47,861 nucleotides of DNA, taken from contig NZ_JAKLWS010000034.1 of the NCBI RefSeq assembly GCF_022012475.1, forward strand, positions 1-47,861, written 5' to 3'. Position 1 is the stretch's first letter. Every line of letters starts with the position of its first letter. This DNA is from Rhodohalobacter sulfatireducens (GTDB lineage: Bacteria; Bacteroidota; Rhodothermia; Balneolales; Balneolaceae). The notes beneath the pieces were generated by a model. The model saw only the letters and a list, made by a program, of their open reading frames with translations, was not told where the DNA came from and made no database searches. Positions 26,346 through 29,217 of this stretch are shown piece after piece. Made by a program: the position numbers and the translations under genes.

Positions 26346-27239
26346 ATGGCGAATCTCCGGGACATACGAAATCGGATATCATCGATAAAGAATACCCAGC
26401 AGATTACAAAAGCCATGAAAATGGTGGCTGCTGCCAAGTTGCGAAAGGCTCAGCAGCGTATGAATGCTACACGTCCGTATTCTAAAAAGATGGGACAAGT
26501 TGTGTCAAAACTTGTTTCAACACAAAAGGATCTACAGAATGATCTCTTGAGAAAACCGGAAGAGACAAAGCGTATTTTATTAATTGTTGTTGGATCTGAT
26601 CGCGGACTTTGTGGTGGGTTCAATAATAATCTTTTTAGAAAAGTTGAAGGCGTAATCTCTGATGAATACAGTACGTTTAATGATCAGGGTCATTTGGAAT
26701 TGATCACCATTGGTAAAAAAGCGTCCGGTTATTTTAAGAAAAGAGATTACAACGTTATTGAAGCATTTCCCGGTTTCTTTGATGATCTGAATTACGAAGA
26801 AACCTCGGAGATAATGACTTTTGCTTCAGAGAAATTTGTAGAAGAGTACTACGACAAAGTTTTGATCGCATTTAATGAGTTCAAAACGGTAATCACTCAA
26901 AATAGATTAATTGAGGAAGCACTTCCTCTGAAAACCGAATCGATAGGTGAGGAGGAAGAGGAATCATCAACTAATAAAGATTATATTTTTGAGCCTGATC
27001 CTGTATCTATTTTGGAGAAATTGTTACCCGTTCATTTGAATATGCAACTTTGGCGAGCTGTTCTTGAATCGAATGCATCTGAGCAAGGTGCCCGAATGGC
27101 AGCAATGGACAATGCAACTGAAAATGCAAAAGAACTGGAACAAGATCTTAAGCTTGAGTATAATCAGGCACGACAAAGTGCAATTACCACAGAAATTTCA
27201 GAAATTGTGTCTGGTGCGGCTGCACTTGAGGACAATTAA
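26346..27239 (+). CDS. atpG: ATP synthase subunit gamma
   Basis: Central rotor shaft of F1. The N-terminal coiled coil (NLRDIRNRISSIKNTQQITKAM) and the C-terminal helix (ENAKELEQDLKLEYNQARQS) are typical, as is the GSDRGLCGGFNNN core. At 297 aa it carries an acidic insert (about 197-210, GEEEEESSTNKD) not found in E. coli. It is the last ATP synthase gene here; beta and epsilon (atpD, atpC) are absent, so the operon is split. Confidence 0.97.
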   Translation: MANLRDIRNRISSIKNTQQITKAMKMVAAAKLRKAQQRMNATRPYSKKMGQVVSKLVSTQKDLQNDLLRKPEETKRILLIVVGSDRGLCGGFNNNLFRKVEGVISDEYSTFNDQGHLELITIGKKASGYFKKRDYNVIEAFPGFFDDLNYEETSEIMTFASEKFVEEYYDKVLIAFNEFKTVITQNRLIEEALPLKTESIGEEEEESSTNKDYIFEPDPVSILEKLLPVHLNMQLWRAVLESNASEQGARMAAMDNATENAKELEQDLKLEYNQARQSAITTEISEIVSGAAALEDN

Positions 27240-27248
27240 AATTTATGA

Positions 27249-27296
27249 TTGATGATTTTTGAATATTAATTTATTCATCATCAAGTTACATTTTTT
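27249..27296 (+). terminator. Possible AT-rich terminator after atpG
   Basis: TTGATGAT (27249-27256) pairs with ATCATCAA (27277-27284) around a 20-nt loop, and six T residues follow at 27291-27296. The loop is long and the U-tract distant, so it is a weak candidate; it would sit directly before the tRNA. Confidence 0.3.
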
Positions 27297-27383
27297 GGAG
27301 GGATGGCAGAGTGGTCGAATGCGGCGGTCTTGAAAACCGTTGAGGCCTCGCGGTCTCCGGGGGTTCGAATCCCTCTCCCTCCG
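27297..27383 (+). tRNA. tRNA-Ser(UGA)
   Basis: A complete 87-nt class II tRNA. The acceptor stem GGAGGGA pairs with TCCCTCC, with discriminator G27383 and no encoded CCA. The anticodon stem GCGGT/ACCGT encloses the loop CTTGAAA, giving anticodon UGA, which reads serine UCA codons. A long variable arm (about 27341-27357) and the T-loop TTCGAAT support Ser. A run of seven T follows at 27387-27393. The 3' portion from 27340 to 27384 is repeated at 27650-27717 beyond a small nuclease gene. Confidence 0.97.
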
Positions 27384-27384
27384 C
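27340..27384 (+). repeat. Direct repeat, proximal copy (tRNA-Ser 3' half)
   Basis: This is the variable-arm, T-arm and acceptor portion of the intact tRNA. Its first 21 bases match 27650-27670 exactly and its last 17 match 27701-27717 exactly; the middle differs. The two copies flank the GIY-YIG gene like attachment-site duplications. Confidence 0.85.
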
Positions 27385-27410
27385 TCTTTTTTTAGTTAAC
27401 CTCCAGAATT

Positions 27411-27653
27411 TTGTATTACACATACATTTTGTGTAGTAAAAAGAATGACTTTCATTATTACGGTCATTCGAAGGATTTAGAGGAAAGATTAAAGCAACAT
27501 AATCAAGGCCGTGTACGGAGCACAAAAGCTCACAGGCCATTTGAAATTATTCATAAGGAAACTTTTAAAACAAAATCCGAAGCATATAGAAGGGAAATGT
27601 TTTTCAAAAGTATTGAAGGATATCAATATTTAAAGAGGAAAGGGATTATTTGA
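27411..27653 (+). CDS. GIY-YIG nuclease embedded in a duplicated tRNA-Ser
   Basis: An 80-aa single-domain GIY-YIG endonuclease. The family core is present: YTYIL for the GIY element, HYYGHS for YIG, the catalytic Arg26 in LEERLKQHN, and Glu62 in EAYRREMFFKS. No DNA-binding domain is attached. The only usable start is TTG 27411; no in-frame ATG precedes the core, so expression may be weak or a former ATG may have mutated. The stop TGA (27651-27653) is part of the second copy of the tRNA 3' sequence, so the gene fills nearly all the space between the two repeats. This suggests a homing-type element that targets tRNA-Ser. Confidence 0.88.
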   Translation: MYYTYILCSKKNDFHYYGHSKDLEERLKQHNQGRVRSTKAHRPFEIIHKETFKTKSEAYRREMFFKSIEGYQYLKRKGII

Positions 27654-27717
27654 GGCCTCGCGGTCTCCGGTGGGTTCCCCCAAAGGGATCCCCTCGGGAG
27701 AATCCCTCTCCCTCCGC
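27650..27717 (+). repeat. Displaced tRNA-Ser 3' half with a T-loop insertion
   Basis: Bases 27650-27670 repeat the variable-arm region of the intact tRNA and 27701-27717 repeat its T-stem and acceptor end. Between TTC and GAA of the T-loop, 22 extra bases (27678-27699) are inserted, plus one extra T at 27671. The insert contains the palindrome GGGATCCC and short C/G stems. Without a 5' half it cannot make a tRNA. It is followed by the terminator that probably served the original tRNA. Confidence 0.88.
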
Positions 27718-27728
27718 ATTAATAGCAT

Positions 27729-27756
27729 AAGCCTCAACCATTGTGTTGGGGCTTTT
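27729..27756 (+). terminator. Rho-independent terminator
   Basis: AAGCCTCAAC (27729-27738) pairs with GTTGGGGCTT (27745-27754) over a 6-nt loop, ten pairs with one G-T, and ends in a short T-run. It lies directly after the displaced tRNA end, where the terminator of the undisturbed tRNA gene would have been. Confidence 0.8.
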
Positions 27757-27819
27757 CTATTAAATAATGATGATAGTTGTACGTTCATGGCTTAAACCTT
27801 TTCAATCTAACATGCCATA

Positions 27820-29217
27820 ATGCAAAACTGTAAAGAACTATATCGAACAGGGGTACTTCTACTGCTTCTTTTTGTACTCTTCAAACCATCTTTTGCACAG
27901 GATACACTTTCTATTACGTTACCCGAATTTATTGAAAGAGGATTAGAAAATTCTGGTCAGGTTGCTTACGAAAGTGGTAAGGTGGATTTGGCAGAAAATC
28001 GTGTTCGTACTGTTAAATCCCGCCGTATTTTTCCACGTTTTGAACTCAATACACAACATGGAGTTGTTCCCGGTGTTGAAAGTAACCGTGATGATTTGGG
28101 AGAAGGAGAGTATTACCTCGACCCGAACCTTGAAAATGACTGGAACAACTGGGCTGTATTTACCCGGGCTGAACTCTCTGCTACTCAACCAATATATACC
28201 TGGGGAGCGGTTTCAAGTGCGGTTAAAGCTGCAGAAGCGGGGGCTAAATCCGCACAATACGAATTTAGCGCAGTAAAAGCAGAGGCCGAAATTCAACTGT
28301 TTGAACTTTACTACAGTTACCTTTTGGCAATGGAAATTTCAAGAATCCTTGAAGATGCGAATGAAAAGTTAGATGACGCTGAAAAAGAACTTAATAAGAT
28401 GAGAGAAGAGGGAAATCCAGACCTGCAGGAATCAGATGTATTTAAATTTGAAATTTTTAAATCAGAGTTTGCAACAAGGCAGGTAGAAGTTCAGGAGAGC
28501 ATAAATTATATAAAACGAGTTTGGGATTATGCTCTCCAGGCAGAGCCCAATGTTACGTATATTCCGGATGAAAACTTCCTGGATCCCGTGCCTTATCAAC
28601 TTGAAGAATATAATTATTATCGCGACAAAGCGATTCAGGAACGCCCTGAGATGAGGGGAGTGGAGTTCGGAATTACTGCACTGGAAAAGAGGCTGGAGGC
28701 TGAAAAAGCTCAGCAATACCCCATGTTTTTTCTCGGTATTACAGGTAGCTTTGCGAATACTCCGAATAGACCCCGCCAGACCAATCCGTTTATCAGGAAT
28801 AATACAAATTATGGTTCGGTTGGTGTAGGTTTCGGTATCAGGCAGAACCTGAACTTCTTATCGATGCGTGCCACGGTTGACAGAGCACGGATTGAATACA
28901 GACGTGTCAACGATCTTGAAAAGGCTGTATCTGACCAAATCATATTAGACCTGAATGAACGTTATCGTGAGGCAACTGTTGCGGAAACCAGGATGAAGCA
29001 AACGGAAGAAGCTCTTGCCACCGCCCGTAAATGGGTACGGAATGAACAGTTAAATTATGATATCGGTTTTGGTGATGCTGAAAATCTCCTGGACGCACTT
29101 CAAAAAGAAGTAGAACTGCGCGTTAAATTGAAACAAAATATATTTGATTTGAATAAGAAGATAGCAGCCCTGTATAAAGCAGGCGGTTTGCCTATTTCTC
29201 AACTGAATTTAAATTAA
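27820..29217 (+). CDS. TolC-family outer membrane efflux protein
   Basis: A 465-aa outer-membrane channel protein for tripartite export systems. The signal peptide ends FKPSFAQ; two repeats of coiled-coil-rich sequence follow (about 30-230 and 260-455), with KAAEAGAKSAQYEFSAVKAE and NFLSMRATVDRARIEY as typical helix-turn elements. The C-terminal LNEKIGFGDAENLLDAL-like region (YDIGFGDAENLLDALQKE) is also family-typical. No inner-membrane pump gene is adjacent; an MlaC-like protein follows 6 bp later, so the two may serve lipid transport rather than drug efflux. Confidence 0.88.
   Translation: MQNCKELYRTGVLLLLLFVLFKPSFAQDTLSITLPEFIERGLENSGQVAYESGKVDLAENRVRTVKSRRIFPRFELNTQHGVVPGVESNRDDLGEGEYYLDPNLENDWNNWAVFTRAELSATQPIYTWGAVSSAVKAAEAGAKSAQYEFSAVKAEAEIQLFELYYSYLLAMEISRILEDANEKLDDAEKELNKMREEGNPDLQESDVFKFEIFKSEFATRQVEVQESINYIKRVWDYALQAEPNVTYIPDENFLDPVPYQLEEYNYYRDKAIQERPEMRGVEFGITALEKRLEAEKAQQYPMFFLGITGSFANTPNRPRQTNPFIRNNTNYGSVGVGFGIRQNLNFLSMRATVDRARIEYRRVNDLEKAVSDQIILDLNERYREATVAETRMKQTEEALATARKWVRNEQLNYDIGFGDAENLLDALQKEVELRVKLKQNIFDLNKKIAALYKAGGLPISQLNLN

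Follow-up and report, generated by a model that had tools for sequence, protein, structure and literature searches.

A lone GIY-YIG nuclease gene between an intact and a hairpin-split tRNA-Ser copy in Rhodohalobacter sulfatireducens: a probable homing-type element of a tRNA-linked family

Why would a single small nuclease gene lie between an intact tRNA-Ser gene and a second, partial copy of the same tRNA? The question is raised by a stretch of 47,861 nucleotides of Rhodohalobacter sulfatireducens (RefSeq assembly GCF_022012475.1, contig NZ_JAKLWS010000034.1, positions 1 to 47,861, forward strand; hereafter the window). An original prediction made from the letters of this DNA had proposed a minimal homing-type element that leaves one tRNA intact and displaces the other end, and this is still the reading that the genomic comparisons below support best. 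The unit and its relatives are probably minimal homing-type selfish elements, each a free-standing GIY-YIG gene dedicated to one tRNA isotype, and it appears rather likely that such isotype-dedicated elements form a phylum-wide family of which the window unit is one copy. To the original prediction the analysis adds isotype-specific nuclease clades, tandem arrays, a mirror layout, and a structured hairpin insert.

Table 1. Features of the tRNA-Ser locus and its flanks, in window coordinates.
Feature	Position	Strand	Basis
Intact tRNA-Ser(UGA)	27297-27384	+	ARAGORN; Rfam RF00005, 59 bits
T-loop run GTTCGAATC of intact tRNA-Ser(UGA)	27363-27371	+	sequence
GIY-YIG nuclease gene, 80 aa, TTG start	27411-27653	+	ORF list; Pfam PF01541, E 1.7e-16
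Displaced tRNA-Ser 3' part (variable arm, T-arm, acceptor)	27650-27717	+	sequence, repeat comparison
22-nt twin mini-hairpin insert in T-loop of displaced copy	27678-27699	+	sequence
Two 11-nt hairpins of the insert	27678-27688, 27689-27699	+	7/8 pairs standard
Terminator-like hairpin and T run, native	27729-27756 (approx.)	+	by eye
atpG, left flank, outside the element, synteny anchor	26346-27239	+	
Outer-membrane efflux (TolC-type) gene, right flank, outside the element	27820-29217	+	

ARAGORN, Rfam, and Pfam agree on the predicted order of an intact tRNA-Ser(UGA) and a lone GIY-YIG gene (Table 1). The second copy of the tRNA 3' part was confirmed by direct repeats linking 27340 with 27650 (24 nt, 96%) and 27367 with 27700 (18 nt, 100%), but the prediction had missed that its T-loop is interrupted. 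The insert lies after GTTC (ending at 27677) and before GAATC (starting at 27700), and each of its two mini-hairpins has a 4-bp stem and a 3-nt loop. Because the displaced copy holds these 22 nt, the repeats are spaced by 310 at the left part and by 333 at the 3' part; the predicted unit of about 310 bp thus holds for the left part only. The displaced copy ends with the same bases as tRNA-Ser, including the last base of the tRNA, its start is overlapped by the nuclease stop codon (27651-27653), and the terminator expected behind it was recognised by eye. As predicted, no integrase was found among ORFs of at least 50 aa between the copies; GIY-YIG is the sole recognisable gene there, and a tyrosine-recombinase integrative element was rejected on that account. 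A group I intron in the tRNA gene was likewise rejected: ARAGORN reports the tRNA as uninterrupted, the nuclease gene lies outside any intron or intein, and no intron family was among the Rfam matches at E<=1 in 27200-27850 (of these, only the tRNA match was used, other weak matches below gathering scores being left aside).

Occupied and empty alleles of this site occur among species of the genus. Loci anchored on AtpG were recovered from 25 of 28 genomes searched; 15 are empty, 6 are occupied, 1 is a decayed remnant (G013), and 3 are undecidable, the sequence stopping before the site. The 15 empty loci carry a single intact tRNA-Ser with a terminator-like hairpin directly behind it, by eye homologous to that of the window, which is the junction that the original prediction expected of relatives lacking the gene, and they include the two closest relatives by AtpG (86% and 82%). 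In the window and in G019 the intact tRNA-Ser stands at the left and a broken 3' copy at the right, G019 having one broken 3' copy on either side of the nuclease. Four further genomes (G003, G011, G020, and G021) show a mirror layout, with a broken 5' tRNA copy left of the nuclease; the intact tRNA is visible at the right in three of these, and the G021 contig stops earlier. A second locus, anchored on the thiolase gene beside tRNA-Val(UAC), is occupied in 7 of 20 genomes, empty in 8, and undecidable in 5 (in one the sequence stops at the tRNA, and four are without tRNA-Val within the stretch examined). Here the nuclease is positioned behind the terminator of tRNA-Val, and the exact junction therefore differs among clades. 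Presence and absence alleles at one site are thus seen for Ser and Val, in comparisons between species rather than within one.

Linkage to tRNA genes recurs in the window genome and far beyond it. In that genome (5.1 Mb), 35 tRNA genes were detected (scoring covered 150 of 321 candidates, and some tRNAs may be missed), and four of nine GIY-YIG matches lie directly downstream of same-strand tRNA genes (Ser-UGA, Ser-GGA, Leu-GAG, and Asp-GUC). Since the 260-bp strips downstream of these 35 tRNAs make up about 0.09% of strand positions, this adjacency is far from chance. Two of the tRNA-linked copies (L002 and L004) are located at contig ends, which suggests that assemblies tend to break at such repeats and that their number is underestimated. 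With the window protein as query, matches were found in 26 of 40 relatives, the window genome included. Among 90 matches in the fetched loci, an intact tRNA lay upstream in 50 and downstream in 6, while 16 had only tRNA fragments, a class that depends on author-set score cut-offs, and 18 had neither. A conserved-peptide scan of named genomes, built on the Ser-type alignment, yielded 66 loci in Bacteroidota, Balneolota, Ignavibacteriota, Chlorobiota, Calditrichota, and other groups, and a profile that may also catch GIY-YIG genes without tRNA linkage matched 256 of 392 genomes of the phylum. The window protein as query found no relative in viral contigs and phages, and one distant match among plasmids, from Enterococcus.

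The three sets of loci (relatives, named genomes, and phylum), combined and deduplicated, gave 254 matches at E<1e-10; they are not random samples, the named set having been collected via Ser-type sequences and the phylum set consisting of top-scoring matches. The association of homologues with tRNAs, on which the original prediction hinged, was found in most: 168 of the 254 have an intact same-strand tRNA within 260 bp (upstream in 130, downstream in 38; 172 of 261 before deduplication), and a further 42 have one at 261-1000 bp; in 40 of these 42, a different nuclease copy lies closer to the tRNA. For 44 there was no intact tRNA within 1 kb, and 12 of these had less than 260 bp of upstream sequence. 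An opposite-strand tRNA was the nearest within 1 kb in none of the 254. Neighbouring isotypes were Ser, Leu, Asn, Asp, Gly, Met, Pro, Val, Cys, Arg, Glu, Gln, Ala, and Tyr. The duplicated flank also recurs: a copy of the adjacent tRNA, outscoring all other isotypes, was present beyond the nuclease in 136 of 163 testable cases, and was not found in 27. Tandem arrays exist as well; the largest (L230), with five full units and a partial one at tRNA-Leu(CAG) and a 450-bp period, is a natural amplification series. A separate branch is formed by L075 and four small GIY-YIG genes of the same genus near which no tRNA was found (L008, L080, L082, and L083), some of them in repeat-rich intergenic DNA.

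The insert of the displaced copy is a recurrent structure. Inserts were searched with 8-nt flanks taken from the T-loop or anticodon loop of the local tRNA itself, allowing a total of at most one mismatch and gaps of 1-90 nt; an earlier search with loose flanks was too noisy and was superseded by this strict one. Displaced copies are interrupted at the centre of the T-loop or of the anticodon loop, and the commonest insert length is 22 nt, seen in 27 of 64 flank pairs at the T-loop and in 26 of 46 at the anticodon loop. Many inserts of other lengths trace to flanks of neighbouring tRNAs or to chance. The same flanks recurred uninterrupted, other tRNAs included, 22 times for the T-loop and 11 times for the anticodon loop. 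Copies split in the T-loop mostly follow the nuclease and reach the tRNA 3' end, and copies preceding the nuclease are mostly split in the anticodon loop. In a set of 42 distinct 22-nt inserts, with one plainly unrelated sequence kept in, 306 of 336 cells of the two mini-hairpins are standard pairs, against a mean of 226.2 and a maximum of 242 after shuffling (0 of 1000 as high) and 26-45% of cells when the pairing was slid; 52 pair cells are doubly changed. Thus, the inserts covary as two hairpins. A single long palindrome was rejected as their structure: its outer pairs form in 225 of 336 cells, against 306 for the two mini-hairpins, and all 11 long pairs are present in none of the 42. The 22-nt inserts belong almost entirely to Ser and Glu tRNAs, and by eye the Met, Cys, Asp, and Asn clades seemingly have, in their loops, a single hairpin of a different length. 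At one further locus of the window genome (L006, 1782-1960) a degenerate tRNA-Asp copy stands 5' of tRNA-Asp with its D and anticodon loops replaced by single palindromes, and a short remnant also lies behind the nuclease (all by eye).

It is possible, although we would not bet on it, that the twin hairpins reflect a separate, tiny insertion process into hairpin loops, which survives only in redundant tRNA copies and has no role in a nuclease cycle. Similar sequences do exist elsewhere in the window genome, where the window copy and 14 other distinct twin-hairpin-like sites, 15 in all, were resolved; at 6 of the 15 (window copy included) at least five of the seven outer-stem pairs form, as they do at 436 of 4000 random positions. 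Doubled or nested inserts (L153, L213, and L256) would also suit such a process, as would the position of some twin hairpins inside loops of larger hairpins. What weighs against it is that, in 219 fetched loci, enrichment of perfect twin hairpins is confined to the neighbourhood of the nuclease: within 400 bp of it there are 79, against 4 in one block-shuffled set, and elsewhere 14 were found against 13 after shuffling. It should be noted that the 79 include a few A+T-rich sequences unlike tRNA and about 4 from duplicate loci. Away from tRNAs, twin-hairpin-like palindromes were seen within loops of larger C-rich or G-rich hairpins (L113, L114, L127, L134, and others) and perhaps represent a dispersed repeat family.

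The nuclease itself bears on a second alternative, which we consider unlikely, namely that tRNA and GIY-YIG units are passive cassettes that spread and duplicate by ordinary homologous recombination, the nuclease having some other, repair-like function or no part in mobility. In its favour, units in tandem are almost identical, with extensive shared homology, and the relatives of solved structure that the profile found are UPF0213 proteins and the structure-specific nuclease SLX1. The best matches with a solved structure, PDB 1zg2 and 1ywl (E 4.5e-15 and 7.9e-14), are small UPF0213-type GIY-YIG proteins, the likeness to the window nuclease being one of sequence profile. The window protein is little beyond a bare GIY-YIG domain of 80 aa and is without the DNA-binding part that I-TevI-type enzymes have. 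Six residues are invariant in 15 aligned sequences (Y5, Y16, G18, R26, H30, and E62), and we take these Y, Y, G, R, H, and E columns to be the catalytic residues. Against a passive passenger, however, nuclease clades follow tRNA isotype across genomes: on a tree of 71 domains the isotype labels, 'none' counted among them, require 20 changes, compared with a mean of 50.2 after shuffling (0 of 200 as low). This tree is based on about 74 alignment columns, with 26 of 67 inner branches unresolved and support mostly weak, and the Asn group is unclustered and the Leu group weakly clustered, each including one row labelled from a weak fragment match. Nor would a passive passenger need the purifying selection seen in five clades (median pN/pS 0.21-0.25, at near-saturated synonymous sites). 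Further, Ser-type proteins of the genus are interleaved, at weakly supported forks, with those from other orders and phyla, a pattern consistent with transfer between lineages.

Lower still in our estimate, and rather improbable, stands an RNA target: the nuclease would act on tRNA or tRNA-like RNA in toxicity, regulation, or defence, and the hairpin-bearing copy would be a decoy or a cleavage-resistant transcript. Two observations would suit this. The inserts sit at the centres of what in the RNA are loops, and in five Ser-type loci (L143, L146, L156, L175, and L179) the ATG lies 0-3 nt past the tRNA 3' end, so that the tRNA promoter probably drives the nuclease gene as well, on a transcript shared with the tRNA. 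At Val, and at many other loci in the genus, tRNA and nuclease are separated by what by eye is a terminator-like hairpin. GIY-YIG enzymes, on the other hand, are known as DNA nucleases, and the mismatches in the inserts show no strand bias (10 G-T and 12 A-C), which lends no support to selection on a plus-strand RNA; presence and absence alleles, too, suit insertion. Lastly, a chance tandem duplication that placed a tRNA fragment next to an unrelated gene, conceivable as long as the window is viewed alone, is refuted, and may be dismissed for practical purposes, by the recurrence of the linkage (210 of 254 matches, together with the far-side copies counted above) and by empty alleles at two loci.

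Under the homing reading, which is thus preferred, the nuclease would cut an unoccupied tRNA gene of the matching isotype, inside the gene, and repair from an occupied donor as template would copy in the nuclease gene together with part of the tRNA. One functional tRNA would be kept at one side and a truncated copy displaced to the other, and unequal exchange could afterwards generate tandem arrays. The hairpin insert that often splits a loop of the displaced copy, in the Ser-type clade mostly the 22-nt twin, may serve to spoil the nuclease site there. Weighing against this reading are the 44 matches without a nearby tRNA and the 27 cases without a far-side copy, the bare nuclease domain, the twin-hairpin-like sites away from tRNA copies, and the lack of matches to the window protein in viral contigs and phages. 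If the reading is true, essential tRNA genes in Bacteroidota and neighbouring groups harbour a large family of parasites, each a single gene, which have to leave unharmed the very tRNA gene that they target. The loci would then allow homing in bacterial chromosomes to be studied on naturally occurring empty, occupied, tandem, and decayed alleles, and would offer small nucleases that are apparently specialists for tRNA genes and, in the covarying hairpin insert, a further object of study; they would also link chromosomal GIY-YIG genes to phage SegB.

How does such an element compare with known systems? Integrative elements that use tRNA genes as attachment sites duplicate the 3' part of the tRNA on both sides and keep one functional tRNA. 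The window unit shares the 3' duplication and the kept tRNA with these elements, but is without a recombinase, measures about 310-330 bp, and carries a structured insert within its displaced tRNA copy; a further difference is the mirror layout of some relatives, in which it is the 5' part that is displaced. The insert in turn recalls the double-hairpin elements of fungal and other mitochondria, which excerpts of PMC2800124 describe as short, made of two adjacent hairpins, and thought to be mobile. Both have two adjacent hairpins with variable stems, as the covariation and doubly changed pairs show for the inserts; unlike the mitochondrial elements, the inserts occur in bacterial genomes, are linked to the nuclease and to tRNA loops, and are most often exactly 22 nt long. 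In searches of the openly licensed literature of PubMed Central, no description of tRNA-linked chromosomal GIY-YIG elements and no parallel for a hairpin-tagged tRNA remnant were found, and the remnant could be the part that is categorically new. More tentatively, the whole may amount to a new selfish class, in which an isotype-specific nuclease lineage hijacks tRNA genes and their transcripts and uses a twin mini-hairpin, conserved in structure but free in sequence, as an immunity or end mark, possibly placed by an unknown hairpin-into-loop process.

The closest comparison, which lends the homing reading independent support, is with SegB, a free-standing GIY-YIG homing endonuclease of T-even phages (PMC13096335, PMC2988022). 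According to the text excerpted from PMC13096335, purified SegB cuts within tRNA genes, the motif RAWTSGAAC is preferred without being strictly required (23 of 83 sites), catalytic activity is required for tandem amplification of the tRNA-segB unit, and amplification of the tRNA locus lets the phage escape a tRNA-cutting defence; in the corresponding excerpt of an older review, the target is the tRNA intergenic region (PMC2988022). RAWTSGAAC is the reverse complement of GTTCSAWTY and may well correspond to the T-loop run of tRNAs that the insert splits. Of 190 same-strand tRNA genes in the loci, 113 have this run exactly, and it is precisely this run that 30 of 38 T-loop inserts interrupt, at a position that is fixed by the design of the search. 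Among anticodon-split copies, 11 of 39 still have the run within 75 nt. In the window the displaced copy is interrupted, yet the intact tRNA-Ser beside the nuclease retains the run, and self-cutting must therefore be avoided somehow: either the nuclease site extends past the tRNA, or the donor is protected from cutting in some other way, as excerpts on free-standing GIY-YIG enzymes indicate (PMC13096335). Taken together, the anatomy, the allele pattern, and the conserved residues fit an element that, judged from its sequence, more probably than otherwise works like a free-standing homing endonuclease. A hairpin-split displaced tRNA copy, present here, is not described for SegB in the excerpts of either source (PMC13096335, PMC2988022). 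Like SegB, the nuclease studied here is of the GIY-YIG type, is encoded among tRNA genes, and occurs in tandem tRNA-nuclease repeats; unlike the phage-borne SegB, it is chromosomal, consists of a bare domain of 80 aa, and belongs to lineages that are each specific for a tRNA isotype.
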